From an uncultured Bacteroidota bacterium (lineage in GTDB: Bacteria; Bacteroidota; Bacteroidia; 2-12-FULL-35-15): a stretch of 41,689 nucleotides of DNA. The position numbers and the translations under genes are program-made. Within the stretch, counting starts at the first letter, position 1; each line of letters begins with the position of its first letter. Of this stretch, positions 1,537 to 33,450 are shown in pieces. The notes below the pieces were generated by a model. The model saw only the letters and a list, made by a program, of their open reading frames with translations, had not been told where the DNA came from and searched no databases. The DNA lies in NCBI GenBank assembly GCA_903926385.1, contig CAIYIS010000030.1:1-41689 (forward strand). Reading direction: 5' to 3'.

Positions 1537-1808
1537 GAAAAAAGGTGGTTTTTTTGTCGATTATTATGGGGAGGGTTGGGGGAATTGGGTACGCGGATAG
1601 AAATGATTGGTTATGATAAAAAGGGTTTATGATTGAATATCTGCGAGACTTAGCGTTTTATCTGGGAGAAAATGAGTTCAACTAAATATTTGTGATTGGT
1701 AAAAAGCGATGAAGCGGTAAGAATTGGGGTGTGGTTTTGATAATTTTTCTACATTTACGAAGTTTAAAAAGCGGCTTGATTGCCGAACATGAAAAGAGAA
1801 ACATTGCT
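1514..1808. other. Upstream region of the polysaccharide operon, no clear element
   Basis: About 300 bp lie between the divergent small gene and the first operon gene. No exact TAnnTTTG was found for the plus strand; the nearest is TACATTTA at about 1749-1756, one base off, roughly 50 bp before the ATG at 1809. No antiterminator or JUMPstart-like element is recognised. Confidence 0.4.
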
Positions 1809-2975: not shown

Positions 2976-2981
2976 TACCCG

Positions 2982-4193
2982 ATGAAAAAGACGATTTGTT
3001 TATTAACGGCTGAGTATCCTTATGGAAAATCAGAAAGTTTCATTGAAAATGAAATAGAGGTATTGCAAACCAAGTTTGAAAAGGTGCTTATAATGCCTCA
3101 CACCTCGCAACGCAGCGAGAAAAGAGCCTTGCCCACTAATGCCGAACAGCACGACCTGATTAATCATAGAGCGGATATGAATACACGAAAATTACTGGTG
3201 AGTAATTTATTTTTTATTGTGTGGGTGCTGTTAATCGAACTGTGGCATTGCCCACGGTCGTGGTATTTTCTTAAAAATATACGTTATTTTAATTCTCTTC
3301 TTATTAGAGCTATTTACGATTCGGAAAAAATTAAGGAGTTGATTAAACAAACGGGAGAAGGAATTATTTTTCATTCGTACTGGATGAACGACTGGGCTCT
3401 GGCATTGGCGGTGCTGAAACGCAAGGGGGAGATACCGAAGTTTGTGTTCAGATGCGGAGGATTTGATATATTTGACGAACGCCACAAAGGTAATTTTGTT
3501 CCGTTTCGGCATTTTGTGTACAGTCAAACGGCTGCTGTTTATCCGAATTCGCAATATGGAGAGCACTATATTAAAACCAAGAACTGTTTCCCGGAAAAAG
3601 TAAAACTGCAATACCTGGGCACTAAAAACTACGGGATAAATCAGTTTGACAATAATGCGGTTTTTACCATCGTTTCGTGTTCGAATGTTATTCCCCTCAA
3701 AAGAGTGGACATGATAATAGAAATTCTGAAACATATAAAATTTGAAGTAAAATGGGTGCATTTTGGAGATGGTAAAAGCATGCAGGATATAATTGAAAAG
3801 TCATTACATTTGCCAGCTAATATATGTTGCGAATTAAAAGGTAGGGTAACGAATAAGGCAATCATCGAATATTATCAAACTCATCCGGTTCATTTGTTTA
3901 TTATGACAAGCGAAACAGAGAGTTTGCCGGTGTCGATTCAGGAGGCCATAAGTTTTGGAATACCTGTTATGGCTACAAGTGTGGGAGGTGTGGGAGAAAT
4001 AGTGACAGAGCAAACGGGAATGTTGATAGATGCAAATATAGATGCTGCTTATGCGGCTGAAATGATAACAGAATTTAAATTGAGTGATAAAAACACATCA
4101 GCGTTCAGAAAAGGAGTCAGACTTTTTTGGGAAAAGCATTTTGATGTAGAAAAAAGTATAGCACATTTTTATGATGATTTAATTAGGAAATAG
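2982..4193 (+). CDS. Glycosyltransferase, GT4-like
   Basis: A 403-residue GT-B fold glycosyltransferase, expected to add a sugar from a nucleotide-sugar donor at the cytoplasmic face. The C-terminal domain has the retaining-GT4 signature: TSETESLPVSIQEAISFGIP with the E-x7-E pair (E313, E321), followed by a GGVGEIV loop for the nucleotide. The N-terminal domain begins KKTICLLTAEYPYGKSESFI, a common start of the acceptor domain in this group. It lies 6 bp from the genes on either side, as part of one operon. Donor and acceptor sugars cannot be told. Confidence 0.9.
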   Translation: MKKTICLLTAEYPYGKSESFIENEIEVLQTKFEKVLIMPHTSQRSEKRALPTNAEQHDLINHRADMNTRKLLVSNLFFIVWVLLIELWHCPRSWYFLKNIRYFNSLLIRAIYDSEKIKELIKQTGEGIIFHSYWMNDWALALAVLKRKGEIPKFVFRCGGFDIFDERHKGNFVPFRHFVYSQTAAVYPNSQYGEHYIKTKNCFPEKVKLQYLGTKNYGINQFDNNAVFTIVSCSNVIPLKRVDMIIEILKHIKFEVKWVHFGDGKSMQDIIEKSLHLPANICCELKGRVTNKAIIEYYQTHPVHLFIMTSETESLPVSIQEAISFGIPVMATSVGGVGEIVTEQTGMLIDANIDAAYAAEMITEFKLSDKNTSAFRKGVRLFWEKHFDVEKSIAHFYDDLIRK

Positions 4194-4199
4194 AAAAGC

Positions 4200-5657
4200 A
4201 TGTTGTTTAACTCTTTCAGTTTTTTAGTTTTTTTTCCTCTGGTTACATTGCTGTATTTTATGTCGCCATATAAATACAGGTGGCCGTTACTTCTTATTGC
4301 CAGTTGTGTTTTTTACATGGCATTTATTCCCTATTATATTTTAATTCTGGGTGGCACCATTGTGGTGGATTATTTTGCCGGAATATATATTGAAAGAGCC
4401 GAAAATACACTACAGAAAAAGCAATACTTGATACTAAGTTTGGTTGCAAACATTGGTGTGCTGGCGGTGTTTAAGTATTACAATTTTTTTATTGATAATG
4501 TGAGCGAGGTAATTACTTATTTCGGTTTCGAATCCCCATTGCGTTACCTGGCCATTATACTTCCCATCGGACTTTCGTTTCACACCTTTCAGGCCATGAG
4601 TTATACCATAGAGGTTTATAGAGGTAATCAAAAGGCAGAAATGAATTTTGTTAAATATGCCTTGTATGTAATGTTCTTTCCTCAACTGGTTGCAGGGCCT
4701 ATAGAGCGTCCGCAGGGATTGTTGCCTCAGTTTGAAAGACATTATGATGTAGACTACGACAGAATAGTGGTCGGATTAAAGCAAATGTTGTGGGGGTTCT
4801 TTAAAAAGATAGTGATAGCCGACCGTATTGCTGCCATTGTAAAGCAGGGGTATGGTGATATTGAAAATCATGATGGGTTTTCGATTATGATATTTACTTA
4901 CCTTTTTGCTTTTCAGATTTACTGCGATTTTTCGGGTTATTCGGATATTGCCATAGGAGCCGCAAAGATTTTGGGAATTAATTTGAGAGAAAACTTTCGC
5001 ACACCCTATTTTTCAACTTCAATTAAAGAGTTCTGGCAACGCTGGCACATGTCGCTTTCCACATGGTTCAGAGATTACTTATACATTCCTCTGGGAGGGA
5101 AACGAGTGGGAAGATGGCGTTGGTTTTTTAATTTAACTGTTGTATTTCTTCTTAGTGGTGTTTGGCATGGGGCCAACTGGACATTTGTGGTTTGGGGTGC
5201 ATTACATTGTTTGTATATGATCTCAGGTCACTTTGTTAAAAAGTACTTTGGTTGGTTTTTTATTTCAATTGAAGAACAAAAAAATGTAAAGTCTTATTTA
5301 CTTCAATTTATCAGGGTAATTGTCACTTTTAGTTTGGTTTCTTTTGCGTGGATTTTCTTCAGAGCTACTTCGGTGGACGAAGCGTTGACCATAATAGTTA
5401 AGATATTCACCATGGAGGATTTTATAAATATTAGAAACCTTAGCTTATTTAAGATAAGTGATGCTACTAGTTTTATTGTAACACTAGGCTTGCTTGTTAT
5501 GTTCCTTTCGTCCGATTCGTTTATGGATAAATTACTGAAACAACAGAAAAAGATAAAATACAGATTTGTTAATTATCTGCTTTATGCAAGTGTGCTGGTG
5601 TTTATATTTATTTTCGGGCATTTCTCAGATACTAACTTTATTTATTTTCAATTTTAG
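4200..5657 (+). CDS. MBOAT O-acyltransferase (AlgI/PatA/DltB-like)
   Basis: A 485-residue membrane-bound O-acyltransferase. The N-terminus FNSFSFLVFFPLVTLLYF and the segment FPQLVAGPIERPQ are family hallmarks. So are KEFWQRWHMSLSTWFRDYLY and SGVWHGANWTFVVWG, with the expected catalytic histidine at H323. About eleven hydrophobic helices are visible. AlgI-type MBOATs pass an acyl group from a cytoplasmic donor across the membrane to a periplasmic partner that acylates the polysaccharide. The next gene starts directly after its stop and encodes a plausible SGNH partner, which supports an alginate-type acetylation pair. Confidence 0.95.
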   Translation: MLFNSFSFLVFFPLVTLLYFMSPYKYRWPLLLIASCVFYMAFIPYYILILGGTIVVDYFAGIYIERAENTLQKKQYLILSLVANIGVLAVFKYYNFFIDNVSEVITYFGFESPLRYLAIILPIGLSFHTFQAMSYTIEVYRGNQKAEMNFVKYALYVMFFPQLVAGPIERPQGLLPQFERHYDVDYDRIVVGLKQMLWGFFKKIVIADRIAAIVKQGYGDIENHDGFSIMIFTYLFAFQIYCDFSGYSDIAIGAAKILGINLRENFRTPYFSTSIKEFWQRWHMSLSTWFRDYLYIPLGGKRVGRWRWFFNLTVVFLLSGVWHGANWTFVVWGALHCLYMISGHFVKKYFGWFFISIEEQKNVKSYLLQFIRVIVTFSLVSFAWIFFRATSVDEALTIIVKIFTMEDFINIRNLSLFKISDATSFIVTLGLLVMFLSSDSFMDKLLKQQKKIKYRFVNYLLYASVLVFIFIFGHFSDTNFIYFQF

Positions 5658-6626
5658 ATGCAAGCGAAACGGTTATTGAAAAGTGGTTTGGTTTTTCTGC
5701 TGGTGTTCGCAGTCTTGTATTTTCCTGCATTGGTATTTATGTGTAAGGTTAATTTTAAAAGCAAACCTCTTATTTATAAAACATCTGATATTTATACACT
5801 CAAGGGGGGAAATAGTTATCGTAAATTTAAGGAGTTTGATAAGAATGCCAAGTGCGATTTGATTGTAGTAGGTTCCTCTCACGCTTACCGAGGTTATGAC
5901 CCACGAAATTTCAGTAGTGCCGGAATATCGATGTTTAATTTGGGAACAAGTGCACAAACTCCGCTCAATTCATATATAATAACAAAAAATTATGTTACAA
6001 ATGGAAACTGTAAACTTGTCATTCTGGATGTGTATGACGGAGCGTTCCATAATAACGGGTTTGAATCATCCTCCGATTTGATTCAAAACATTTCGTCAAA
6101 CAAAGCGGCCTTTGAAATGGCCACTTCATATAAGAATCCTCAAATTTTAAATATGCTTGCGCTTCGATTTATAAATTCTTCTTCACCTGTTTTATATCAG
6201 GATTCGCTCTACAAAGGATGTGGTTACAGCGAAAAGAGAGATACCTTAAAATATTCCCTTCCTTTTGATGAATATGAAAACAGGTATTTGCCAAGCGATG
6301 TCCAAATCGAATACCTGGAGAAATTGCTACAGTATTTTACAACTAATAATATTCCTGTCATCATGGTAACAGTGCCTTTTCCAAAGGAGAAAATTGTGGA
6401 ACAGCATATTATTTATAGTAAAATATTTACTGAAATGGCTTTGAAATATAAAGTACAGTATTTGGACTATTCTTTCAATAACAATTTTAATTCGAAAACA
6501 CATTTTTACGATTCTCATCATCTTAATCAGTCAGGGGTAAACTTATTTAATAAGATATTTTTGGATGATTTAGATAAGATGGATATTCTGAAAAAGCTGC
6601 ATGTTGGAGCAGTATCGCGTGAATAA
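5658..6626 (+). CDS. SGNH-hydrolase-like periplasmic acyltransferase partner of the MBOAT
   Basis: A 322-residue protein with one N-terminal membrane anchor (residues ~8-29) and an extracytoplasmic domain. The motif VVGSSHAYRGYDP (serine at 73/74) and a late D285-S-H-H pair fit an SGNH serine esterase/transferase triad as in DltD/AlgX-like partners. ATG follows the MBOAT stop with no gap, so the two are probably translationally coupled and act together: MBOAT exports the acyl group and this protein places it on the glycan. Which serine is catalytic and what the acceptor is remain inference. Confidence 0.75.
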   Translation: MQAKRLLKSGLVFLLVFAVLYFPALVFMCKVNFKSKPLIYKTSDIYTLKGGNSYRKFKEFDKNAKCDLIVVGSSHAYRGYDPRNFSSAGISMFNLGTSAQTPLNSYIITKNYVTNGNCKLVILDVYDGAFHNNGFESSSDLIQNISSNKAAFEMATSYKNPQILNMLALRFINSSSPVLYQDSLYKGCGYSEKRDTLKYSLPFDEYENRYLPSDVQIEYLEKLLQYFTTNNIPVIMVTVPFPKEKIVEQHIIYSKIFTEMALKYKVQYLDYSFNNNFNSKTHFYDSHHLNQSGVNLFNKIFLDDLDKMDILKKLHVGAVSRE

Positions 6627-6657
6627 TTCCATAAATATTATTTTAATACATTGACAT

Positions 6658-8196
6658 TTGAAGTCTGTTTTATATTTTAGTTTGTTGCTTGTTGCTGCGC
6701 TTGTTTTGAGGCTCTATGCTGTTTTTGAACTAAAGAAAGGTTTTTCGAATGATGAAAGCGTTACCTATTTGACTGCAACTGGTAATCAAGTCCGATATGC
6801 TAATCTTGCTAATCCTGATTCTATTTACCTAAATTCAGTTATGAAGACGAATGTATGGAAGGATTGTTATATCTCTCATCCAAAATTTTGTTTTAATAAA
6901 ATTGCTTCCGGGCTTTCGCATTATGATATTCACCCTCCATTGTATTTTTGGTTGATGCATATTTTTGTTTTACTTTTTGGATTGCATCTCTACACCGGCT
7001 TGATTTTGAATTTGCTTATTAGCGTGCTAACGCTGTTTGCGCTTTACAAATTAGCTCTGTATGTGTTTAACGATACTTCACAATCACTATTGGTATGTAC
7101 TATTTGGTTTTTGAGTCCTGCTGTGGTGCAGATGGATTTAGAAGCAAGGCATTATCAGTTGTTCGCATTGTTCAGTATTCTGGTGAGTTATTCGGCTCTT
7201 ATAATTTTAAATAATAGAAAGACGGATAAAAAAAATCTTTTCCTACTTGTGCTTTATTCTACTCTTGGATTGCTTACTCATTATTATTTTTCTTTTGTCC
7301 TTTCAGGTTTGTTTGTTTTATTTCTTATTCGATTTAAGCTTACACGAATTACTTTTCAATTAGCATTTTCATTCTTGCTTAGTTACGGCCTTTTTATATT
7401 GATATTTTCTGATTTTATTACTTTTATAAAGGGCTATTTTTCGAATAAAGGAAGCGTGCGTCATGCTCACGAATTCCAGTCGCTTATTGATAAAATCAAG
7501 ACTCAACTTTATGCCACGCTCGATTTTGGATCATTTGGACACCTGATTAAGTATGTTTATCTGTTGCTGCTAATTCTCCTAATCGGTGCAGTAATCAATA
7601 AGATTGTAAAGAAGAAATTATTTGGTTCTTTCTTATCAATGAAGAATATTCATATTATTATCATACTCTTTTTATGGAATTCGCTTTTTACTGTCCTGTT
7701 TTATATGGCTAATGTAAGTCCAAATCAGGCCGTAGGCGAGCAGTACTATTCGTACATTTGGCCATTTTTTGCTATTATTCTTGTTTATGCTATTAGTTTT
7801 TTGAACATCTCCGTTTGGATTACCTATTCTTATATGCTGTTACTTTTTGTTTTTTGTTTTCAATCAATTAAGCATAGCGATTATTTGCATTCTGAGATTC
7901 CTTCGAGCTGGTATGATGAGGCAAATAAATCAGATTTAATAGTTATCGATTCATACGACCGTTGTATGTTACCAAGAATATTGTACTTTATTAATAATGA
8001 AAAGGATATCTTTGTTGGAGATATTCATAAATTGAAGGATCCAGAATCATATAATAATATCGTTGTAATGTATTTGATTAAGAAAAGTAATAATCATCAG
8101 GAGCAGTTTAACCTACCGTTTCATGTGTTGAATGGAACAGAGAAATACTCTGATACCGATAAAGATTTTTATTTTATTGATTCGTATGTCAAGTGA
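6658..8196 (+). CDS. GT-C glycosyltransferase, family 39/ArnT-like membrane protein
   Basis: A 512-residue integral membrane protein with ~10-11 hydrophobic helices. The first loop after helix 1 carries SNDESV (D32, E33), the acidic pair of polyprenyl-phosphate-sugar-dependent GT-C enzymes. Further on, the YDIHPPLYFWLMH motif is typical of GT39/ArnT relatives. Such enzymes use lipid-linked sugars and act on the periplasmic side. The start is taken as TTG at 6658: an in-frame stop lies two codons upstream, and any later ATG would remove the first helix and the acidic motif. It follows the SGNH gene by 31 bp. It could glycosylate the polysaccharide, a lipid or a protein. Confidence 0.8.
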   Translation: MKSVLYFSLLLVAALVLRLYAVFELKKGFSNDESVTYLTATGNQVRYANLANPDSIYLNSVMKTNVWKDCYISHPKFCFNKIASGLSHYDIHPPLYFWLMHIFVLLFGLHLYTGLILNLLISVLTLFALYKLALYVFNDTSQSLLVCTIWFLSPAVVQMDLEARHYQLFALFSILVSYSALIILNNRKTDKKNLFLLVLYSTLGLLTHYYFSFVLSGLFVLFLIRFKLTRITFQLAFSFLLSYGLFILIFSDFITFIKGYFSNKGSVRHAHEFQSLIDKIKTQLYATLDFGSFGHLIKYVYLLLLILLIGAVINKIVKKKLFGSFLSMKNIHIIIILFLWNSLFTVLFYMANVSPNQAVGEQYYSYIWPFFAIILVYAISFLNISVWITYSYMLLLFVFCFQSIKHSDYLHSEIPSSWYDEANKSDLIVIDSYDRCMLPRILYFINNEKDIFVGDIHKLKDPESYNNIVVMYLIKKSNNHQEQFNLPFHVLNGTEKYSDTDKDFYFIDSYVK

Positions 8197-8249
8197 TTAC
8201 AGGCTTGACTTAAATAAGAATGATTAATATGAAAGGCAAGAATTGAATT

Positions 8250-9311
8250 ATGGAAAGAATTAGGGGATTCGATGGATTGCGTTTTTTTTCAATACTGTTT
8301 GTTATAACTTTTCATATGGGGTCGATTAGTTTGTTTCCTGACAACGAATATTTGAGGAGAAATATATTCTACTTTTTTTCTGGTGGAGCAGGGGTGACAA
8401 TGTTCTTTGCAATAAGTGGTTTTTTAATCACTTCCATTTTGCTTTCAGAAAAAAAAAGAAAAGGTGAAATTAAGCTCAAACGTTTTTTTATTAGAAGGTT
8501 TTTAAGACTATTACCACCTATCATTCCATTTTACATCACTGTAGCTGTTTTTATGTATTTAGGTTATATAAGGGAGTCTTATGTTGGATTGTTGGCCTCC
8601 ATGCTTTATTTATACAATTTTATCCCAATAGATAAAAAGTTCTTTACTGCAGAGCTTACTCATACATGGTCTTTAGCGGTGGAGGAGCAATTTTATTTCA
8701 CATGGCCATTCATTCTAAGTTTTGTGACTTTGAAACGAATCTATTTAATCGCCTTTATAATTATTATCTCAAGTTTCGTAATACTCTTTTCACTTCCTTA
8801 TTTAAGTTTTCATGGCCATTTGTTAAATCATGTGTTTTTTGTCGAGAGATGGATTGTTCCTGCAATAGCTCCTATACTAATAGGGTCATTAGCAGCGGTT
8901 ATAAACTTTAACAATAAAGAATGGGTAAGCGGTTATTTTAAAAGGAAAACATGGTTTTATATAAGTTTAGCTGTTTTATGTGCTCCATTTTATTTACCTG
9001 ATTTTTTATTTAATTCTTGTGCGCAAATATTTTATTCGCTCGGAGCATCACTTTTATTGCTATGGGTGAGTCATAATCAGAATAGCAGAATTGTGGGGTT
9101 TCTAGAAAATAAAGTAATGAGTTATATCGGAAAGATTTCATACGGCTTATATATTTGGCAGGGTTTTTTTATTGGTGATATTCCTAAAGTAAATCCAACA
9201 TTAATTGTACAGGCTTTACCATTTAATGTAATTTGTACTTTTTTAGTTGCTATTGTTTCGTATGAATTTTATGAAAAAAGAGTGCTTAAATTGAAGGAGA
9301 AGTTTAGTTAA
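8250..9311 (+). CDS. Acyltransferase 3 family membrane protein
   Basis: A 353-residue polytopic protein of the acyltransferase-3 family, the second of three in this operon. The N-terminal RGFDGLRFFSILFVITFHMG has the conserved R and the histidine (H22) of the active site. HTWSLAVEEQFYFTWPF is the classical second motif. There is no C-terminal SGNH domain, so transfer would rely on the membrane domain alone. The gene sits 53 bp after the GT-C gene in the same orientation. Its target is probably a specific sugar of the glycan. Confidence 0.92.
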   Translation: MERIRGFDGLRFFSILFVITFHMGSISLFPDNEYLRRNIFYFFSGGAGVTMFFAISGFLITSILLSEKKRKGEIKLKRFFIRRFLRLLPPIIPFYITVAVFMYLGYIRESYVGLLASMLYLYNFIPIDKKFFTAELTHTWSLAVEEQFYFTWPFILSFVTLKRIYLIAFIIIISSFVILFSLPYLSFHGHLLNHVFFVERWIVPAIAPILIGSLAAVINFNNKEWVSGYFKRKTWFYISLAVLCAPFYLPDFLFNSCAQIFYSLGASLLLLWVSHNQNSRIVGFLENKVMSYIGKISYGLYIWQGFFIGDIPKVNPTLIVQALPFNVICTFLVAIVSYEFYEKRVLKLKEKFS

Positions 9312-9343
9312 GAATTATAGTATTTTTAGTTTGTTTTATTATC

Positions 9344-10246
9344 ATGTTAGTTTCAGTAATCATACCTTGTCATAACGCAGAAAAGTACATTGCAGAATGT
9401 ATTGAATCGGTGATGACTCAAACGTATCGTGATATTGAGATGATCTTGGTCGAGAATAATTCTTCAGATAGTACGCTGAAGTTGTTACACGAATTTTCAA
9501 CAAAGTATCCTGATAAGGTAAAAGTTCTGACTGAAACAAAACCTGGAGCTTCTCTGGCACGAAATGCCGGCCTTTCAATAGCAAAAGGGGAGTGGGTGCA
9601 GTTTTTGGATGCGGATGATCTTTTACTTCCAAATAAAATCAGCAATCAGGTGCAATTAGTATCGGGCTCAGTTGCAAATTTGGTTGCCGGTAATTATTTA
9701 AGGATAGAGAACTGTAACACCGAAAAAATATTTACAGTAAAAAATAGTTGGGAAGGTTTAATTATAGGCAGACTGGGAGTAACCAGTTCTAATTTGTGGA
9801 GAAAGTCTTCTTTGTTGGCAGTAGGAGGATGGGATGATATAAAAAGCAGTCAGGAGGCTATGCTGATGTTTAAACTGCTTCAGCAAAACAACGAAGTAAT
9901 ATTCGATGATGAGTTTAACGCTATAAAGATGGAAAGGAGTAATCTTTCTATTTCGAAAACAAATGTAAAAGACAATATCATTCGATATATTGAGTTAAGA
10001 ATTGCCATCTGGAAATACCTGCAGTCGACTGGTAATTTAACTGAGTACCTTTTAAGAGTACTTAAAATAAATGTGTTCGATAGCATTAAAATTTTGCACA
10101 CCGAAAATGCAGAAGCAGGACTGAGCTTGTATAATGAATATGTGAAACATAAATTTAAACCCATTCAATCATCAAGCACTTCGTTTTTATATTTAGTTTT
10201 ATACAAAATTGCAGGCTTCAGAATGGTGCAGAATATAATTGGTTAA
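9344..10246 (+). CDS. Glycosyltransferase family 2
   Basis: A 300-residue GT-A fold enzyme with a standard GT2 N-terminus: VSVIIPCHNAEKYIAECIES, then VENNSSDST, the acceptor-side GASLARNAGL, and the metal-binding DAD (residues 89-91) in VQFLDADDLLLPNK. It has no membrane segment and should work at the inner face of the membrane with a nucleotide sugar. It lies 4 bp upstream of wecB, so a role in adding the N-acetylmannosamine unit is possible but not shown. Confidence 0.92.
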   Translation: MLVSVIIPCHNAEKYIAECIESVMTQTYRDIEMILVENNSSDSTLKLLHEFSTKYPDKVKVLTETKPGASLARNAGLSIAKGEWVQFLDADDLLLPNKISNQVQLVSGSVANLVAGNYLRIENCNTEKIFTVKNSWEGLIIGRLGVTSSNLWRKSSLLAVGGWDDIKSSQEAMLMFKLLQQNNEVIFDDEFNAIKMERSNLSISKTNVKDNIIRYIELRIAIWKYLQSTGNLTEYLLRVLKINVFDSIKILHTENAEAGLSLYNEYVKHKFKPIQSSSTSFLYLVLYKIAGFRMVQNIIG

Positions 10247-10250
10247 GTGA

Positions 10251-11351
10251 ATGAAAAAAAAGATACTTATTGTTGTAGGCACACGGCCTAATTTTATAAA
10301 AATGACACAATTTAAGAAGGAAGCTTCGCGCTTTCCTCTTCTTGATATTAAAATTGTTCATACCGGTCAGCATTACGATACCAAAATGGCTGATGTGTTT
10401 TTTAAGCAATTTGAACTGGTGCCCGATTACTTCTTAAATATTGCTCAGGATTCGGCAGTAGCCCAGATGGCTCAGATAATGATTAAGCTCGAAAACCTTA
10501 TTCATACTTCATTTAATCCTGATTTAATGATTGTTGTTGGCGATGTGAACTCTACCCTGAGTGCCGCTTTGGTAGCAAATAAACTGAATATTAAACTGGC
10601 TCACCTCGAAAGCGGGTTGCGTAGTTTTGATAAAACAATGCCCGAAGAAAATAACAGACTGCTGACAGATGCTATAACGGATTATTACTTTGTCACCGAA
10701 AAAAGCGGAATGACTAACCTTGACAATGAAAAGGTAAAAGCGGATTCTGTTTTTTTTGTGGGAAATACTATGATTGATACACTGGTGGCGTATCACAAAA
10801 GTATTCAATCGTCCGCTATTTTAAAGGAATTGAATGTAGAGTCACAAAAGTATGTGCTGATGACTATGCACAGGCCTGCTACAGTGGATGAAGAGAAGGG
10901 CTTGAATACATTGATAAGTTTAATAGAAGAAGTTACTAAAGAGTTGAAGTTGGTTTTTCCTGTTCATCCCAGAACGTTGAAAAATCTGGAAAAGTATAAC
11001 TTGTTACAAAGGTTTCAAAGCAACAAAAATATTATTTCCACCGAGCCTCTTGATTATTTTTCATTTCAGAAACTAATTGCAGATTGTAAGTTTGTGCTTA
11101 CAGACAGTGGGGGAATACAAGAAGAATCTACCTTTTTAGGAGTACCTTGCCTCACACTGCGTCCAAATACTGAAAGACCGGTTACTTGCGAAGTGGGCAC
11201 AAATACGTTGATTCCATTTGATGTTGAAATAATAAAACATCAAATAAACCTTATTACCACAGGAGCATATAAAAAAGGTAGTATACCTGAATTGTGGGAT
11301 GGAAATGCAACAACCCGGATAGTTAAAATACTTAATGAAGTGTTGAGTTAA
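10251..11351 (+). CDS. wecB: UDP-N-acetylglucosamine 2-epimerase (non-hydrolysing)
   Basis: A 366-residue enzyme, the usual family length, interconverting UDP-GlcNAc and UDP-ManNAc. Diagnostic segments run in order: GTRPNFIKM at the N-terminus, HTGQHYDTKM, GDVNSTLSAALVA, HLESGLRSFDKTMPEENNR, MHRPATVDEEKGL, PVHPRT, and DSGGIQEESTFLGVPCLTLR with TERP in the C-terminal nucleotide domain. The product is the usual precursor of ManNAc or ManNAcA residues; no UDP-ManNAc dehydrogenase (WecC) is seen nearby. Its stop overlaps the next ATG by one base (TAATG). Confidence 0.95.
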   Translation: MKKKILIVVGTRPNFIKMTQFKKEASRFPLLDIKIVHTGQHYDTKMADVFFKQFELVPDYFLNIAQDSAVAQMAQIMIKLENLIHTSFNPDLMIVVGDVNSTLSAALVANKLNIKLAHLESGLRSFDKTMPEENNRLLTDAITDYYFVTEKSGMTNLDNEKVKADSVFFVGNTMIDTLVAYHKSIQSSAILKELNVESQKYVLMTMHRPATVDEEKGLNTLISLIEEVTKELKLVFPVHPRTLKNLEKYNLLQRFQSNKNIISTEPLDYFSFQKLIADCKFVLTDSGGIQEESTFLGVPCLTLRPNTERPVTCEVGTNTLIPFDVEIIKHQINLITTGAYKKGSIPELWDGNATTRIVKILNEVLS

Positions 11352-12490
11352 TGATTTATCTAACTTACAATGATCAGCCTTCGGGGGTTTATTTCAGTCA
11401 GGTTACTGATGTTTGTGCGTTTGTAAATAAAAGATTCAATTGCAATATTCGTTTGGTTGCGCTGATTTCAATTCGGGGGTTTTTAGAAAATAGAAAATCC
11501 ATCAAGCAGAATTTTCCAGAAGCCATTGTTCTTCCCATGTTTCCCAAACAAAAGAACTGGAGAAGAAATAAATTACTTCTTAAGATTTTATTTCTCTTTA
11601 TTGGTAAACAATCCGTTTGGTGTCGCGGTATATTTGCAACTAATCTGGCATTGTTACTGAAGAAGAACAATTGGACAAATCGGGTGGTGTTTGATGGCAG
11701 AGGCGCTTATGATGCTGAGTATAATGAATACCTGAATAAAATCACTTCCTTGTCCGATAGCATTTCTGATTTAGAACGGGATGCCATTTTGCTCTCCGAT
11801 TTCCGTTGTGCTGTTTCAGAAAAACTGGTAACCTACTGGCATCAGAAATACAATTACGTTTCAAAAAATCATTGTGTCATTCCATGCACCATTAATTCTA
11901 ACGAATCTCATTATCCAAGCGAAAATGAGATAAAGTCTGTAAGAAAGGAATTAGGTTTTGCTAATGATGATGTGGTCATTGTTTATTCCGGGTCGGCTGC
12001 CGACTGGCAATCATTACAAATGGTGGATGACTTTCTTTTATTGCAAATGCGAAGTAATACTGGCATTAAGTTTATTCTTCTTTCCAATTCTCCTTTGGAA
12101 CAATTGAAAATGTATAAGGAATTCCCGAATCGAATTATCCAGAAATGGGTAAAAGCTCATGAAGTAAAAAAGTATTTGTATGCGTCCGACTATGGAATGT
12201 TAATCAGAGAGAATTCGGTTACCAATGAAGTAGCATCACCAACCAAGTTTGCAGAATATCTTCATGCCGGATTAAAGGTGCTGATTTCGGAAAATATTGG
12301 TGATTTCTCAGCCTTTACCAAGAAAAATAATTGCGGAACAATAATTACCGATTTTGAATTTGGTTATAACTTTACTCCGTTAACTTATTCGCAAAAAGCA
12401 ATTAATTTTAAATTAGCGCAAAATCATTTTACGAAAAATGTATTTGAACAAAATTATAATACCATTGTACAACTGTTAAAGGAGAAATAA
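11351..12490 (+). CDS. Glycosyltransferase, GT-B/GT4-like, atypical
   Basis: A 379-residue soluble protein. Near residue 115 there is FDGRGAYDAEYNEY; the C-terminal half begins with a phosphate-loop-like YSGSAADWQSLQM, and PTKFAEYLHAGLKVLIS replaces the usual E-x7-E block of GT4. This pattern fits a glycosyltransferase of GT-B fold in a divergent group. It is translationally coupled to wecB by a one-base overlap and lies 6 bp before the acetyltransferase gene. The name is by weak pattern and context; donor sugar unknown. Confidence 0.75.
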   Translation: MIYLTYNDQPSGVYFSQVTDVCAFVNKRFNCNIRLVALISIRGFLENRKSIKQNFPEAIVLPMFPKQKNWRRNKLLLKILFLFIGKQSVWCRGIFATNLALLLKKNNWTNRVVFDGRGAYDAEYNEYLNKITSLSDSISDLERDAILLSDFRCAVSEKLVTYWHQKYNYVSKNHCVIPCTINSNESHYPSENEIKSVRKELGFANDDVVIVYSGSAADWQSLQMVDDFLLLQMRSNTGIKFILLSNSPLEQLKMYKEFPNRIIQKWVKAHEVKKYLYASDYGMLIRENSVTNEVASPTKFAEYLHAGLKVLISENIGDFSAFTKKNNCGTIITDFEFGYNFTPLTYSQKAINFKLAQNHFTKNVFEQNYNTIVQLLKEK

Positions 12491-12496
12491 CATTGA

Positions 12497-13165
12497 ATGA
12501 TTAAGAGTAAAGCAGATTACGAATATTACCTAGAGGCCGACCGTATAGCGCTGTCTAAACCAAAAGACTTCTCCTTTTCAACTCGGCAGAAGTTATGGCT
12601 GTTTCCTGATTATATCTGGAAGTTTCAACGAACATTGCGTAGACTGGAGTATTTGAAAAATAAGAATAAGAATGCTTTTGAAAAGGTCACTTATTATTTT
12701 GTGCTCAAACGCTTTTACAAATTGTCATATAAACTTGGATTTACCATTCCGGTAAATGTATTTGGCCCGGGATTATCCATCGCTCACTACGGAACTATTA
12801 TTATCAATTCAGGAGCACGGGTTGGTGCTAATTGTCGTATTCATGCAGATGTGAATATTGGCACTGAGGCAGGTTATTCTGATAAAGCACCAGTATTAGG
12901 CGATAATATTTACATAGGCCCGGGAGCCAAAATATTCGGACAGATTACCATTGCAGACAACACGGCCATAGGGGCAAATGCGGTGGTTAATAAATCAGTT
13001 GAAGTGAGTAATACTGTAGTAGGAGGAATACCTGCAAAAATTATTTCTGAAAATATTGATGTAGATGATATGCTTATCAGGGCCACGCGAATAATTGAAT
13101 TAGGTTTAAACTCCCGCGAACTAACCGGAATGCCTGCCAGAGAAATTAAAAAGTTGATAAAATAA
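12497..13165 (+). CDS. Serine O-acetyltransferase-like (left-handed beta-helix) acetyltransferase
   Basis: A 222-residue CysE-type enzyme with a helical N-terminal part (~1-90) and a hexapeptide-repeat beta-helix (~95-185): IHADVNIGTEAGYSDKAPVL, GDNIYIGPGAKIFG, ADNTAIGANAVVNKSV, VVGGIPAKII. Proteins of this kind in polysaccharide loci acetylate sugar hydroxyl or amino groups with acetyl-CoA. With WecE directly downstream making a 4-amino sugar, N-acetylation of that amine is a reasonable guess, though the CysE-like family is more often linked to O-acetylation. It could also be a true CysE, but its context argues against this. Confidence 0.85.
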   Translation: MIKSKADYEYYLEADRIALSKPKDFSFSTRQKLWLFPDYIWKFQRTLRRLEYLKNKNKNAFEKVTYYFVLKRFYKLSYKLGFTIPVNVFGPGLSIAHYGTIIINSGARVGANCRIHADVNIGTEAGYSDKAPVLGDNIYIGPGAKIFGQITIADNTAIGANAVVNKSVEVSNTVVGGIPAKIISENIDVDDMLIRATRIIELGLNSRELTGMPAREIKKLIK

Positions 13166-13171
13166 CTACCT

Positions 13172-14317
13172 GTGAGCTCATTTTCTGAACATCCAATACT
13201 TTTTAATAAACCATTTTTGCCTGATAATGGCTTGCGAAATATTGTGAATGCTTTTATTTCCGGCAAAAAATCATTTGCTCAAAAATGTCAGCAATTCTTT
13301 AATGAAAAGTATAATTTTAAGAATACGTTTTTTACATCCTCCTGCACCGGTGCTTTAGAAATGGCGTCATTACTGCTTAATTTGAAACCAGGCGATGAGG
13401 TTATCATACCTTCTTTTACGTTCGTTTCTTCTGCCAATCCGTTTTTGTTGAGGGGAGCCACCATTGTTTTTGCTGATAGTTCGGCTGATTCACCTAATAT
13501 AGAAGTAGACAGATTAGAAGTTTTAATAACAAAAAAAACTAAGGCTATCGTTGTAGTGCATTATGGGGGAATAGCCTGTGATATGAATAGCATAATGCAG
13601 TTTGCTAATAAACATAATTTAATTGTTGTCGAAGATGCCGCTCATGCTATTGATGCATATTACGACAATAAACCGCTTGGTAGCTTCGGGCACTTGTCAG
13701 CATTTTCATTTCATAATACTAAAAATATATCCTCTGACGAGGGAGGAATGCTGGTGGTGAATGATGAATCTTTATTAGCGCGTGCTGAAATTATATTTGA
13801 AAAAGGAACCAATCGTAAGGCTTTTAACAGAGGTCAAGTGAAAAAATACGAATGGATGGATGTTGGTTCTTCCTTTTGCATGTCTAATCTAACTGCAGCA
13901 TATCTGTATTCACAATTGGAACACCTGGATGAAATACAGAAAAAAAGAATGACTCTTTGGAATTTGTATTTTCAATCGCTTAAGCCCTTACAAGAAAAGA
14001 AATTCATTCAGCTTCCTAAATTAACAGCACTTTCACAACATAATGCCCATCTCTTTTTTATTGTTTGCAAATCCGAAGACGAGAGAAATTTAATAATTGA
14101 GCACATGGCGAAAACTAATATTCCTGTTGCCTTTCATTATTCGTCCTTGCACAACAGCTCGTTTTTTAAGTCTCAATACAGAGGTTTACCTCTAATTAAT
14201 ACTGATAAGTTTTCATTCTGCTTATTGCGTTTGCCCCTGCATTATTATTTGTCCGAATCGGATGTAATGGCAATTACTAGGGCTCTCCAATCATTTTATC
14301 TACCTAATACAATATGA
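13172..14317 (+). CDS. wecE: dTDP-4-amino-4,6-dideoxygalactose transaminase
   Basis: A 381-residue PLP-dependent DegT/DnrJ/EryC1/StrS aminotransferase, closely following the WecE/RffA pattern. Shared strings include SCTGALEMASLLL, PGDEVIIPSFTFVSSAN, FLLRGATIVFAD, VHYGGIACDM, VVEDAAHAID, FSFHNTKN (PLP lysine K184), EKGTNR and GQVKKYEWMDVGSS. WecE makes dTDP-Fuc4N from dTDP-4-keto-6-deoxyglucose using glutamate. RmlA/RmlB for the precursor are not in this window. GTG start, 6 bp after the acetyltransferase; its stop overlaps the next gene (ATGA). The final sugar stereochemistry is inferred from family resemblance. Confidence 0.9.
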   Translation: MSSFSEHPILFNKPFLPDNGLRNIVNAFISGKKSFAQKCQQFFNEKYNFKNTFFTSSCTGALEMASLLLNLKPGDEVIIPSFTFVSSANPFLLRGATIVFADSSADSPNIEVDRLEVLITKKTKAIVVVHYGGIACDMNSIMQFANKHNLIVVEDAAHAIDAYYDNKPLGSFGHLSAFSFHNTKNISSDEGGMLVVNDESLLARAEIIFEKGTNRKAFNRGQVKKYEWMDVGSSFCMSNLTAAYLYSQLEHLDEIQKKRMTLWNLYFQSLKPLQEKKFIQLPKLTALSQHNAHLFFIVCKSEDERNLIIEHMAKTNIPVAFHYSSLHNSSFFKSQYRGLPLINTDKFSFCLLRLPLHYYLSESDVMAITRALQSFYLPNTI

Positions 14318-15303
14318 CGATAGATAAGAATGTCCCGGTTTTGAATTCATTAAGAGCTTTGGCCGCCTTGTCGGTATGTATGTTTCATTATGTTTGTACA
14401 GTTACGGGCTTTATTTCTAATTCGTTTGTTACTTCCATTTTTTCTTATGGTCATCTTGGGGTGCAAATGTTTTTTGTAATCTCCGGTTTCATCATTCCAT
14501 GGTCAATGTATCATAGTAAATATGAGATTTCAGATTTTTTTACATTCACTTTAAAGCGGTTGATTCGACTCGAACCTCCTTACATGGTTTCTCTGATGTT
14601 TGCCATTGCTCACACTTATCTGAGAGCCTATGGTCCGCACTATAACGGTACCGACATTACCCCAACTGCCAAACAAATAGCTTTACATTTTGGATATTTA
14701 ATTCCCTTTTTCGAAGGGGAAAAATGGATACGACCTGTTTACTGGACATTAGCGGTAGAATTTCAATATTACATCACCATTGGTTTATTGTTCAAATTTA
14801 TTTCAAGTAATAAAATGTGGTTGCGAATACTTGTTTATGTTCTGTTTCTTTCAGGGCCTATATGGATGAGAGCAAATTTCCTTCCTTATCATCTTCCTAT
14901 ATTTTTGCTCGGAATTTCTTTATGTCTTTATAAAACAAAAATTATTTCTTTACTTGAAATGTACTTTACAAGTATTGCCGCCATGGTAATCACAGCTGTT
15001 TATATCGATGTTCCTTCGATGTGTTTTGCCGGCTTTACATTTTTTGTAATTCTTTATTTCAGCAATATTAAATCAGCAATTGGAGATTTTCTTGGAAATA
15101 TTTCTTATTCCATTTATTTATTTCACAGTCTTACCGGGATGATTTTGCTTAACTATTTTGCACATTCCACCACATCACCTTTTGTTAAGTTTGTTTTACT
15201 AATTGTTGCAGTCGCTATCAGTATTGGGGCTTCCTACATTGTTTACCGACTTGTCGAAAAACCTTCAAAAGCATTGTCATCAAGGATTAAATATAAAAAA
15301 TGA
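14314..15303 (+). CDS. Acyltransferase 3 family membrane protein
   Basis: A 329-residue polytopic protein, third of the acyltransferase-3 members in the operon. Motifs: PVLNSLRALAALSVCMFHYV (R14, H25) at the N-terminus and RPVYWTLAVEFQYYITIGLL in the middle. About ten hydrophobic helices are seen and there is no extra C-terminal domain. It overlaps wecE by 4 bp and the next glycosyltransferase by 4 bp (ATGA both times), so the three are translationally coupled. Likely acylates one sugar of the glycan or a lipid-linked intermediate. Confidence 0.92.
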   Translation: MTIDKNVPVLNSLRALAALSVCMFHYVCTVTGFISNSFVTSIFSYGHLGVQMFFVISGFIIPWSMYHSKYEISDFFTFTLKRLIRLEPPYMVSLMFAIAHTYLRAYGPHYNGTDITPTAKQIALHFGYLIPFFEGEKWIRPVYWTLAVEFQYYITIGLLFKFISSNKMWLRILVYVLFLSGPIWMRANFLPYHLPIFLLGISLCLYKTKIISLLEMYFTSIAAMVITAVYIDVPSMCFAGFTFFVILYFSNIKSAIGDFLGNISYSIYLFHSLTGMILLNYFAHSTTSPFVKFVLLIVAVAISIGASYIVYRLVEKPSKALSSRIKYKK

Positions 15304-16439
15304 AAGTAGCGTTATTTACAGATGGTATATATCCTTATATGATAGGAGGAATGCAAAAGCATTCGTTTTATCTTGCTAAATATTTTGCCCTTCACCAAAT
15401 TAATGTCGATTTGTATCATACAGCTCCCGACAGTTCTTCGTTGGATAATTTGTTTTGCTTTTCTGAAGATGAAAAGAAATACATTCAATCTATATACATT
15501 CCTTATCCTAAATCTGGAAAGTTACCGGGACATTACATTCGCGAAATGTATGTGTACTCTCAATCCATGTTCGAAAAGATGGAACAACGCCCTCCTGCCG
15601 ATTTTATATATGTGCAGGGATTATGCGGGATGTATATGCTCGACAAAAGTAAACAGACTAAACTGCCTGTTGGAATTAATTTTCATGGATTGGAAATGTT
15701 TCAACATGCACCAAACGTAAGAACAAAATTGGAACAGTTACTTTTCAAACCATCCGTAAGTATGTCCATGCGTAATTCAGATTATGTTTTTTCACTTGGA
15801 GGCAAGCTTACAGATATTATCAGGAAGAATGGAATTCCTGCTGAGCGTATCATTCAGATTCCGATAGGCATTGACGATTCGTGGATTCGTTCTCTTCCCC
15901 TCAAAGTTAATTCAAAACGCAGGTTTGTGTTTGTTGGCAGATACGAAAGAAGAAAAGGGATAGAAGAATTAACACATGTTATTAAGCAACTTTTATCAAA
16001 ACAGAAGTTCAGATTCGAATTTATTGGAGACATACCGGATGGTAAAAAAATAAAATCTCCTGATGTGGTTTACCATGGCAGTTTAACGGATGTGGCTAAA
16101 ATTAAAAATATACTTCTTGATGCAGATGTGCTGGTATGTCCGAGTTACAGCGAGGGCATGCCTACTGTTATTCTCGAAGCTATGGCTTCCGGTCTTGCTG
16201 TTATAGCAAGTAGAGTAGGGGCTGTGGAAGAACAAGTGGATGCAGGCAATGGTTTACTCATAAATCCAGGTAGTACATCCGAACTAAAAAAAGCCATCAT
16301 AAAACTTATCGAGTTGCCCGAAACGGATTTGATTAAACTAAAAAATTATTCTATCGAAAAAATGAAAACACATTTTGTATGGGATAGAATAATCATAAAA
16401 ACTATTGACGAAATAAACCGAGTTATTTCTAAAAAATAA
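15300..16439 (+). CDS. Glycosyltransferase family 4
   Basis: A 379-residue GT-B retaining glycosyltransferase. The N-terminal GIYPYMIGGMQKHSFYLA is the glycine-rich acceptor-domain loop of GT4. The C-terminal domain has RRFVFVGRYERRKGIEEL and SYSEGMPTVILEAMASGLAV with the E-x7-E pair (E285, E293), then SRVGAVEEQV. It overlaps the acyltransferase gene by 4 bp and is the last gene of the operon; dapA follows with its own promoter. Likely adds one sugar to the lipid-linked repeat unit. Confidence 0.93.
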   Translation: MKVALFTDGIYPYMIGGMQKHSFYLAKYFALHQINVDLYHTAPDSSSLDNLFCFSEDEKKYIQSIYIPYPKSGKLPGHYIREMYVYSQSMFEKMEQRPPADFIYVQGLCGMYMLDKSKQTKLPVGINFHGLEMFQHAPNVRTKLEQLLFKPSVSMSMRNSDYVFSLGGKLTDIIRKNGIPAERIIQIPIGIDDSWIRSLPLKVNSKRRFVFVGRYERRKGIEELTHVIKQLLSKQKFRFEFIGDIPDGKKIKSPDVVYHGSLTDVAKIKNILLDADVLVCPSYSEGMPTVILEAMASGLAVIASRVGAVEEQVDAGNGLLINPGSTSELKKAIIKLIELPETDLIKLKNYSIEKMKTHFVWDRIIIKTIDEINRVISKK

Positions 16440-22407: not shown

Positions 22408-23364
22408 TTACAAAAACTCCACCGAATAATGTCCTTTGGTGGGTAAATCTAAATTATGGATTTGATACACTCGATTTAAGAAATTACCAAGGTCGGGGAA
22501 AGCGGCTGTAGTAGGGGTGTTGGCCGGAATAAAAACTCCAACGGGATGTGCTTTGTTTTTGGCCGAATCGTTAACCCACACTTGGCAATCTACATCGCAG
22601 GTAACTTTAATTTTAGTAGTGGGTGTCGATTTTTTAGTTGCTACCATTTTAATTTTATTACTATTTACAGTGCCTTGGTACACGTTGCTGTGAACATGTG
22701 ACTGCATGGTAGCCACATCCACAAAACTTCTGATAATTGTAGGTTCGTTAGGGTGCAAGGTAACGATAACGCCATAATCGACAAAATGCTGAATACACAT
22801 TGCTTCTATGGCTGCCTTTTGGTTAGCAATAGCCACTCCTACCAATGTTTTTTCGCCTTCCTGGTTGCCTCGCGCTGCACTTATTAATCCGTAAAATGAA
22901 GTTATTAAAGTGGCCACTGCTGTTAAAGCCGCGTCCAGATTGCATTTGTCGCACAGAGTTTTAAGATGTAATAATTTATTTTCGATACTTCCTTTGTGAA
23001 AAACATCCATTCCGTAAGGGAAAAGATTAGTGTAGCCGGGAGTTCCGGGCATATGCACGTTGCTAATCATTTGTCGCCACATTGGAAACTTTTCTTTTGT
23101 CATTATCAAAAACAACTGGTCTTTGGCTTGAGTATCGCTCTTAAGGCTGCCCGCAGCGCCATCTTTGGTGGACGATGCATTAACCAAATTGGTATGATAC
23201 GGAGTAAAAATAACTAATTGAGCGGCTATTGCAGGGTCGGAAGGAGCTGCTGCTGTTAGTGCATTAAAATGAAAGGTACTTACTTTAAGTGCTATTGTAT
23301 AGTTTTTACGAACCGCATTGCGAACAAAGTTTTCGGCTGGTAGCCATGTGTTTGTTAAAGGCAT
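22408..23364 (-). CDS. Unrecognised 318-residue protein behind tandem repeats
   Basis: No family is recognised. Residues ~1-215 look mostly alpha-helical (PAENFVRNAVRKNYTIALKV, LDAALTAVATLITSFYGLIS), with a CDKCN pair near residue 138. Residues ~220-318 look beta-rich (TTKIKVTCDVDCQVWVND, GHYSVEFL at the end). No signal peptide or membrane helix is seen, so it should be cytoplasmic or carried out by another route. The gene is alone, with a good terminator behind it and about 1 kb of repeats in front (42-bp and 168-bp arrays). No exact -7 box was found, so any promoter may lie inside the array. Confidence 0.75.
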   Translation of the reverse strand: MPLTNTWLPAENFVRNAVRKNYTIALKVSTFHFNALTAAAPSDPAIAAQLVIFTPYHTNLVNASSTKDGAAGSLKSDTQAKDQLFLIMTKEKFPMWRQMISNVHMPGTPGYTNLFPYGMDVFHKGSIENKLLHLKTLCDKCNLDAALTAVATLITSFYGLISAARGNQEGEKTLVGVAIANQKAAIEAMCIQHFVDYGVIVTLHPNEPTIIRSFVDVATMQSHVHSNVYQGTVNSNKIKMVATKKSTPTTKIKVTCDVDCQVWVNDSAKNKAHPVGVFIPANTPTTAAFPDLGNFLNRVYQIHNLDLPTKGHYSVEFL

Positions 23365-23404
23365 GATTAACTAGTTTAGTTTATGTATTATTTTAATATT
23401 GTTT

Positions 23405-23690
23405 AGCTTCACATCTGGTGAGGTGAGCAAAAATTCAATTTTATATACCATCACATCTGATGAGGTTAGTAAAAATTCATTTTTATATACCTCCACATCT
23501 GATGAGATGAGCAAAAATTCATTTTTATATACCTCCACATCTGGTGAGCTGAGTAAAAATTCATTTTTATATACCTCCGCATCTGGTGAGCTGAGTAAAA
23601 ATTCATTTTTATATACCTCCGCATCTGGTGAGGTGAGCAAAAATTCATTTTTATACACCTTCACATCTGGTGAGGTGAGTAAAACTCAAT
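23405..23690. repeat. 42-bp tandem array (about 6.7 copies)
   Basis: Near-identical 42-bp units, each containing CACATCTGGTGAGGTGAGYA followed by an A-run, TTCA, a T-run and TATAYACC. Because 42 is a multiple of three and the unit has few stops, frames on both strands stay open and give 14-residue repeats (for example VYKNEFLLTSPDAE on the minus strand). That is a property of the repeat rather than good evidence for a protein. It lies 40 bp upstream of the orphan gene at 22408-23364. Confidence 0.9.
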
Positions 23691-23789
23691 TTCCCCCTAT
23701 TTCCCTTCAAAATTTTCTTTTCAAAACTCAAAGAATAAGTGTTGTTTCGAAAAGGGTATGCAAATGAAAAGAATATTTATTTAGGTTAC

Positions 23790-23821
23790 ACATAAGTCCA
23801 TTTTGGACTAATGTTTTTTTT
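23790..23821 (+). other. Hairpin plus T-run in 168-bp copy A
   Basis: Arms ACATAAGTCC / GGACTAATGT with a 5-nt loop and one A-A mismatch, followed by eight T: the shape of an intrinsic terminator on the plus strand, though no upstream plus-strand gene is known. Confidence 0.65.
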
Positions 23822-23957
23822 ATTTAAAAGCCCCTCGCCATCGTTTGTAAAACAATACCTCGTTTATCCCTCTTCGAAGTTTTACTTTCCAAATCTCAAA
23901 GAACAAGTGTTGATTCGAAATGATGATGCAAATGAAAAGAATATTTATTTAGGTTGT

Positions 23958-23989
23958 ACATTAGTGCGTTTGGCACTAATGATTTTTTT
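23958..23989 (+). other. Hairpin plus T-run in 168-bp copy B (compensatory changes)
   Basis: Arms ACATTAGTGC / GCACTAATGA with a 5-nt loop. Compared with copy A a C-G pair has become G-C on both arms and the A-A mismatch has become T-A, while the outermost pair is lost. Confidence 0.65.
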
Positions 23990-24236
23990 ATTTAAAAACC
24001 CTTCGCCATCGTTTGTAAAGCAACTCCTCTTTTATCCCTCTTCTAAGTTTTTCTTTTCAAAACTCAAAGAACAGGTGTCGATTTGAAAAGGGTATGCAAA
24101 TGAAAAAAATGTTTAAATATGCTTCCGCATTGGTATTAAAAAATACAAATGATTTAGTTATTCTAAAACTAATTACCTTCCTCCCACATGTTGGTGACGA
24201 GTGACGATAGGGAAGGTAAATGAGGATAGGAGAAAC

Positions 24237-24288
24237 ATGCGTTACAAACGCATCTCTAGTGCGCCCGCTTTACAAACGAGGGCGAGGG
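24237..24288. repeat. Two adjacent palindromes sharing TTACAAACG
   Basis: ATGCGT-tacaa-ACGCAT (24237-24253) and a GCCC...GGGC palindrome (24263-24283) both contain TTACAAACG. The reverse complement of 24267-24288 matches, at about 20 of 22 positions, the sequence around CGTTTGTAA in both 168-bp copies, so the two repeat types share an ancestor module. Confidence 0.65.
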
Positions 24289-33015: not shown

Positions 33016-33242
33016 TTGTTGAGTTGTTCTGCAAATTGAAATTGAATTATGGAAATGATTAACTTTAATTTTTCAATCCAACCTTATCAAAGTTAACAAT
33101 CAGCACGATTTACTTTTATCAATACATATTTAAATTTCTTACTCTTTTCAATTCCAAAGTTAACTTTAGAGAATTAATTAATTTTTATTGAATCAGTGAA
33201 TGAACGCCATTTCCTTCAATTTTTTGTTCGTAATATCAATTA

Positions 33243-33450
33243 TATAAGAATGGTATATCGGCAACTTGTTTACCATATCAACCCTATAAGAATGGTATAT
33301 CGGCAACTTGTTTACTTTATAAACCGTATAAGAACGGTATCTCGGCAACTTGTCTACAATATCAACCTTGTATGAATTGTATCTCGGCAACTTGTTACTA
33401 AATCAACCGTATAAGAATGATGTCCCAGCAACTTGTTTACTATATTTGTT
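33243..33450. repeat. Second 42-bp tandem array (5 copies, unrelated sequence)
   Basis: Five imperfect units of 42 bp (41-42 in the last), each with TATAAGAATGGTATATCGGC followed by AACTTGTTTAC and ATCAACC. Landmark TATAAGAA recurs at 33243, 33285 and 33327, and TCGGCAAC continues the period in the fourth unit. Copies diverge toward the right. A minus-strand frame stays open as 14-residue repeats, which follows from the period. The flanks (32994-33242 and 33451-33700) hold no gene or other structure that I can name. Confidence 0.9.

Follow-up and report, generated by a model that had tools for sequence, protein, structure and literature searches.

Tandem DNA Arrays of Held Period and Free Sequence Lie Upstream of Unannotated Protein Families in Uncultured Bacteroidota

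Genes of an unannotated protein family of Bacteroidota, here called family I, are preceded by tandem DNA arrays in which the period is held at 41 or 42 bp and the unit sequence is free, and the association between array and gene is strongly supported. One such array lies in the window, the whole 41,689-nt stretch analyzed (contig C30 of a 4.27-Mb genome, hereafter the own genome), to the left of two tandem hairpins on which a preliminary description had centered. Absent from that description, the 42-bp array is the more important feature, and the hairpin repeat is best read as the distal part of an array region that belongs to the adjacent gene. The explanation we favor, at a probability of about 0.5, is that the array is a phased series of cis-acting DNA dyads that controls this gene. 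Binding and regulation are what we infer from the array pattern.

Arrays of 41- or 42-bp Units Precede Family I Genes

Family I was represented by 112 ORF hits, of which three lacked a usable ATG. The remaining 109 were dereplicated by their first 150 residues to 93, and seven of these with less than 350 bp of upstream sequence were left out, giving 86 distinct genes; at least four family I places were also left out (fragments, a contig end, and one with stop codons). Arrays were called from the best self-match in a 100-bp window at lags of 20 to 80, with a threshold of 0.60. By this measure, an upstream array was found in 79 of the 86 genes, at a lag of 42 in 59 and of 41 in 20 and at no other lag, compared with 1 of 45 downstream controls and 0 of 430 shuffled upstream regions. 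At a threshold of 0.50, which 13 of 430 shuffles also pass, the count was 84 of 86, at 41, 42, or 63. The 79 array-bearing genes span 23 of 26 genomes and 7 of 9 taxonomic families, so that the cases are not all independent and yet do not represent one clade. By taxonomic family, arrays were found in 34 of 36 genes in the own family, 23 of 24 in f4, and 9 of 10 in f10; the seven upstream regions below threshold included all three from f41 (0 of 2) and f49 (0 of 1).

Arrays hold a median of 5.8 copies (quartiles 4.0 and 6.65) and end 29 to 275 bp before the ATG (5th to 95th percentile). The longest, at L105 (16.2 units of 41 bp) and L079 (12.3 units of 42 bp), are candidates for copy-number variation. 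The sole downstream-control array belongs to L071 (G218), a distant family I member, and has a 41-bp period on the 3' side with a score of 0.79. A possible third array-linked protein group (312 to 315 aa) is encoded at L160:7934-8878 and L208:10317-11252; the L160 gene is preceded by 12.4 units of 42 bp and scores more weakly against family I (E 9.8e-10).

The motif TAnnTTTG is a Bacteroidota promoter motif. It occurs 48 to 66 nt before the ATG in 8 of the 56 long gaps between array and gene (shuffled mean 0.51, maximum 3), an interval that was chosen after the hits had been seen. Since the motif is also equally frequent on both strands of the array-ATG gaps (11 and 11), we take it as supportive only.

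Unit Length Is Held and Unit Sequence Is Free

Unit sequences of distant family members resemble each other about as much as shuffled units do, and little relatedness between arrays is left below ~60% protein identity. Between proteins less than 45% identical, unit identity is 0.43 to 0.44 vs. 0.42 for shuffled units, and it reaches 0.46 at 45 to 60% protein identity, 0.50 at 60 to 80%, and 0.78 above 80%. The eight array-bearing paralogs of the own genome differ from one another in their units. The period is held and the unit sequence is free.

A further regularity is symmetry. Across 80 consensus units, whole-unit reverse-complement symmetry had a mean z of 2.06, with 40 of the 80 above 2, and the point half a period from the best dyad was itself a dyad in excess of expectation (0.41 vs. 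0.25, p 1e-8), placing dyads about 21 bp apart. Strong dyads, present in 29 of the 80 arrays, are centered on a base in 7 of 7 arrays of 41 bp and between bases in 21 of 22 arrays of 42 bp, a pattern expected if the two lengths differed by a single base pair at the dyad. A stricter local test, which called an inverted repeat clear when no more than 5 of 100 shuffles equaled it, was passed by only 29 of the 80 consensus units. Several units have none (e.g., L023, L028, and L040), so dyad symmetry is a tendency and not a rule. Folding of the 42-bp-type arrays did not differ by strand (mean z -1.40 vs. -1.54, p 0.34). Lengths of 21, 42, and 63 bp correspond to two, four, and six turns of B-DNA. 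A period locked to multiples of two turns, together with the dyads and the strand symmetry, points to phasing at the level of DNA.

The same units bear on whether the repeats encode protein, given that 42 bp equal 14 codons and that several arrays are open in at least one frame. Two window ORFs (23371-23664 on the minus strand and 23399-23767 on the plus strand) cross the array, and the number of open frames, of six, exceeds that of shuffled units at both periods (3.22 vs. 2.56 at 42 bp and 1.00 vs. 0.41 at 41 bp), so that a share of coding may exist. However, 41-bp units shift the frame with each unit, 15 of the 21 arrays of 41 bp have no open frame over three units, and translations, compared by eye, differ between loci. 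The occurrence of 41-bp beside 42-bp arrays speaks against a general coding role, which we consider extremely improbable. A CRISPR array was rejected as an identity for the repeats, as their units are contiguous without unique spacers and, in most arrays, resemble one another from end to end.

The Window Array and Its Dispersed Relatives

In the window, the array occupies 23399..23692, with 6.5 copies by strict TRF (23410-23684) and 7.0 by relaxed TRF. An AT-rich gap of 34 bp (23365..23398, minus strand) separates it from the ATG of the unannotated family I gene at 22408..23364 on the minus strand. A second 42-bp array, unrelated in sequence and with 5.1 copies, lies at 33233..33445 as an orphan flanked, judging by eye, by one AraC-like gene and one UspA-like gene, without an adjoining family gene. 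Far from the repeat, positions 1731-16439 hold a polysaccharide-type cluster (acyltransferases, glycosyltransferases, and epimerase-like and aminotransferase genes, by eye).

Elsewhere in the own genome, the composite of 42-bp array and tail was found again at C18, C48, and C39a (contig C39, ~49.5 kb), and the array without tail or gene at C39b (C39, ~87.6 kb). The window gene has an 89% identical copy at C18. At C48, sequence similar to the gap is kept up to the start codon and the gene is missing, and at C39a the array runs straight into the last part (3' end) of the gene. Thus, the gene or some of its region survives at three of the four related loci, which favors gene-cassette copies over a free mobile repeat. 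C18, C48, and C39a look like such cassette copies, C48 and C39a look like copies after gene loss, and C39a reads as a deletion remnant because the 3' end of the gene is present. The mobile repeat proposed in the preliminary description as one identity for the hairpins fits these loci less well.

Array, leader, and tail might together form a mobile or hitch-hiking minisatellite that spreads by itself and lands before genes, comparable to the BrickBuilt MITE of Porphyromonas gingivalis, which has a 23-nt unit, TIRs, and promoters in its flanks and for which the portions of the source used here report BLASTn matches only within P. gingivalis (PMC4596501). Like BrickBuilt as described in those portions, the present arrays are intergenic, dispersed tandem repeats of Bacteroidota that lie between a leader and a tail and have stem-loop potential; unlike BrickBuilt, they have units of 41/42 (or 21, 62, and 63) bp and free sequence, and they are tied to gene families across genera, whereas no partner gene family is named in that text (PMC4596501). 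Mobility would account for the dispersed array and tail (C30, C18, C48, and C39a), which occur without the gene at C48 and with only its 3' end at C39a, for the array alone at C39b, and for orphan arrays such as window 33233-33445 and L139, which shares its unit with the family array L140. Against it, family I arrays are upstream in 92% of cases (79 of 86) vs. 1 of 45 downstream, array sequence is common mainly to close homologs, C39a has the look of a deletion remnant, and no relatives were found in the phage, plasmid, and viral collections searched. At the window locus, none of the 18 inverted pairs joins both flanks of the array in the manner of TIRs. Overall, we regard a self-spreading element as quite unlikely.

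Two of these gene-less arrays have features of their own. The orphan array at L139:2584-2911 has the same unit sequence as the family I array at L140:17048-17352, ~34 kb away on the same contig. At L007:1770-1798 (C39, ~87.8 kb), a gene-less array, whose unit arms are a mixture of two types along its length, ends in the perfect palindrome CACCTCCCCACGTGGGGAGGTG followed by 7 T, showing that an array unit can itself look like a terminator.

Tail Hairpins of the 168-bp Repeat

Beyond the array, a distal tail (23693..24179) is partly common to C18, C48, and C39a and partly triplicated as a 168-bp repeat on the plus strand. A repeat search placed copy 1 at 23713..23880 and copy 2, 86% identical to it, at 23881..24048; a partial third copy of 67 nt follows at 24049..24115 and matches C18 and C39a on to ~24179. 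The unit length equals 4 x 42 bp, and the 42-bp array lies directly to the left. Consistent with the preliminary description, the two full copies are 168 bp apart and each holds a hairpin followed by 7 to 8 T: the first at 23791..23821 (plus strand; stem-loop 23791-23813, arms CATAAGTCC/GGACTAATG, then T8) and the second at 23959..23989 (plus strand; stem-loop 23959-23981, arms CATTAGTGC/GCACTAATG, then A and T7). The changes it reported between the copies, a C-G pair becoming G-C on both arms, an A-A mismatch becoming T-A, and the loss of one outer pair, were all found as described. The RNA fold z scores of the hairpins are -3.5 and -4.5, with 0 of 200 shuffles as good. An AT-rich third version of the stem without a T-run was located by eye at 24128..24151 (plus strand). 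An inverted repeat of 20 to 22 bp containing TTTACAAACG occurs at 24000-24021, 23832-23851, and 24267-24288; it links the ends of the 168-bp units to a point past the tail and looks like a separate dispersed repeat.

To these three stems were added those of C18, C39a, and C48, giving six copies in five distinct rows, with the stems of 24128-24151, C39a, and C48 picked by eye, which favors pairing. Pairing held in 88.6% of cells across the six copies vs. 22 to 47% when the partner was slid by one to three columns. Both-sided changes occurred at 4 of 9 stem pairs, compared with 0 to 2 in the slid controls and a mean of 2.2 among shuffles, 25 of 500 of which were as high; 4 of 500 shuffles attained the covariation score. 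Pair types were no more numerous than in shuffled stems (301 of 500 as high). Small as the sample is, it supports the earlier proposal that selection acts on structure, here a dyad or stem, and not on the letters. Its assignment of that structure to RNA or ssDNA stands less firmly, as the equal folding of both strands in the related 42-bp arrays fits dyads in double-stranded DNA at least as well.

The hairpins taken alone might instead be a tandem pair of intrinsic terminators that stop rightward transcripts and were doubled by chance together with the 168-bp unit. Both were flagged as terminator-like on the plus strand, and the stem is followed by a T-run in three of the six copies (C30_1, C30_2, and C18). 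In the other three, however, the stem is kept and the T-run is absent, and terminator-like sites in the region number five vs. a shuffle mean of 2.5. This reading also leaves the array and the gene link unexplained. With the T-run confined to half of the copies, neither tandem terminators nor an sRNA array, both suggested earlier, is the general explanation, and we judge terminators alone very unlikely. Predicted sigma-70 promoters showed no clear excess in the region (10 vs. a shuffle mean of 9.0). In agreement with the earlier statement that no known RNA family could be recognized, Rfam gave no match in the window at the gathering score, and its E-value mode returned only snoZ5 (E 0.34) and ylbH (E 0.041), both far below gathering; a tRNA/tmRNA search of the window found none.

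Family I Proteins

Members of family I were found in 11 of the 59 relatives and, when at most five candidates were scored per genome, in 21 of the 395 genomes and 9 of the 196 genera of the class, all counts including the own genome. Several genomes hold five or more members. The 318-aa window protein had no match in Pfam, NCBIfam, or PADLOC and no sequence match in the PDB, and no signal peptide was evident by eye. Its AlphaFold2 model (mean pLDDT 88.7, pTM 0.55) predicts an N-terminal helical bundle (13-221) and a C-terminal beta-sandwich (228-317). Foldseek of family I against the PDB gave no match at E <= 1e-3. The best VIA-align matches, a PirA beta domain (Z 9.5; 86 aligned at 2.8 A) and the McpS helical sensor domain (Z 9.5; 187 aligned at 3.9 A), lie in the range that this tool assigns to common arrangements, and neither they nor 13 BFVD matches at E <= 1e-3, the best of which had an E of 1.9e-6 and a TMq of 0.20, were used for function; single-member PHROGs matches (best E 0.0086) were ignored. 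Phage and plasmid records, searched with DNA and with the family I protein, and IMG/VR, searched with a few peptide patterns, held no relatives, leaving a phage or plasmid origin without support in the collections searched. The isoelectric point has a median of 6.1 in the family (10 to 90%, 4.9 to 9.3; 9.0 for the window protein), and proteins near neutral overall do not clearly suggest self-binding to the array.

The gene and array could alternatively resemble a type III toxin-antitoxin system, in which the array would be transcribed into tandem structured RNAs of 41/42 nt that bind or inhibit the protein. The ToxIN clusters cited in PMC8860590 have 3 to 5.6 repeats whose length and sequence are unique to each cluster. 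The layout is similar, with tandem repeats directly before one gene and a sequence that differs between clusters in ToxIN, CptIN, and TenpIN (PMC8860590), and the median of 5.8 copies compares with 3 to 5.6 for ToxI. An RNA product would also be consistent with the stronger folding of the units relative to shuffled ones (mean z -1.4) and with the covarying tail stem. Unlike these systems, which have an endoribonuclease toxin and variable repeat length (PMC8860590), the present arrays are locked in length and give no strand-specific RNA signal, folding without strand asymmetry. Furthermore, a promoter-like box lies between array and ATG in eight genes, no terminator-like site was found on the minus strand between the window array and its gene (23365-23400), 18 family I members matched no toxin family in Pfam, NCBIfam, or PADLOC (including ToxN/CptN/TenpN), and the protein is helical with a beta-sandwich. 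We consider a system of this type unlikely.

Family II and the 21-bp Quantum

Family II proteins are ~205 aa long and combine a three-helix part with an fn3 domain. Its model (mean pLDDT 88.8, pTM 0.52) has three long helices and a clear fn3 domain (Z 14.3), the helical part not being covered by the structure match. A profile comparison between families I and II gave no homology (probability 0.1%), and we therefore treat them as two families. Plasmid records searched with the family II protein held no relatives.

Thirty family II loci were collected, one of which (L193) had no ORF hit; three of the other 29 lacked enough upstream sequence, leaving 26. Upstream arrays were found in 21 of the 26, with periods of 42 (9), 63 (5), 21 (5), and 62 (2) bp, compared with 1 of 29 downstream, a 21-bp array at L201. 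Because L201 has an array of the same period on both sides, its upstream array may be something else. In a phylum-wide search scored with an 84-bp window, 11 of 13 family-II-like genes had arrays at 21, 41, 42, or 63, comprising 7 of 7 in the own genome (some counted before) and 4 of 6 in other genomes, where the two failures scored 0.55 at 63 and 0.52 at 41. No array was found at any of five unrelated fn3 hits.

Periods of the same series recur in the genomes that were sampled. In 835 kb of the own genome, from contigs partly chosen for holding family genes, the spectrum of periods of at least 15 bp contained 26 arrays at 42, 14 at 21, and 9 at 63, with 0 to 4 at others. Periods of 21, 42, 63, and 84 appeared in 200 kb of G120, and 200 kb of G009 had no peak. 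Counting ORFs of at least 200 aa, with family genes and overlapping frames included, upstream arrays were present at 51 of 462 in the own genome (47 at 21, 42, 62, or 63), 11 of 109 in G120 (9 at 21, 42, or 63), and 0 of 108 in G009. Other genes also have such arrays, which are accordingly strongly tied but not exclusive to families I and II. At L213:3301-8357 (G120), a Cas9-like ORF (by eye) and a family-II-like gene flank a 63-bp periodicity, which could be a CRISPR array.

Comparison with Known Systems

Iterons and operator arrays of plasmid replication and partition are direct repeats spaced at whole helical turns and bound by one protein, which is known in the case of iterons, whose sequence is maintained. 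The arrays here are like them in spacing, which equals whole helical turns (41/42 and 21/62/63 bp, with dyads at ~21 bp), and unlike them in that unit sequences are unrelated between distant members and the binder is hypothetical. BrickBuilt, ToxIN, and a survey of prokaryotic satellites are the nearest known comparisons. That survey covers bacterial tandem repeats of 10 to 200 nt, and a word search of its main text returned no instance of "Bacteroid", "21 nt", "42 nt", "helical", or "upstream" (PMC6749651). Intergenic tandem repeats in lake bacteria are discussed with Planctomycetes in PMC9426551. A limited search of the open-access literature found no description of such arrays.

A Possible Mechanism and Its Meaning

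If the arrays act as phased DNA, dyads lying on one face of the helix could be bound cooperatively by a hypothetical dimeric or multimeric DNA-binding protein, and the bound array would nucleate a nucleoprotein complex by which transcription of the gene behind it is switched or tuned. Gain or loss of whole units (42 bp, or four turns) would change the number of sites with the phase kept, and homogenization among units would allow their sequence to drift in concert. The hairpin of the tail would be one more dyad element, whose T-run in some copies may stop rightward transcripts. If the factor were sequence-specific, its site should be conserved, and the differing units of the own-genome paralogs count against this. 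More speculatively, and in our estimate doubtful, the protein and a private nucleic-acid lattice (the DNA or an RNA copy of it), with a dyad every two turns, might form one two-part system in which geometry is selected, the sequence, free to evolve, acts as an identity label, and many orthogonal pairs coexist per cell.

Strong selection on length and not on sequence is hard to fit to the bacterial repeat and regulatory families known to us. The period lock gives a clean testable prediction, the comparison of 5-bp with 10/11-bp insertions. If the arrays work through DNA phasing, they would represent an undescribed promoter architecture in uncultured Bacteroidota; if through RNA, a new protein-RNA system. 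Either way, they offer a first handle on two unannotated protein families.
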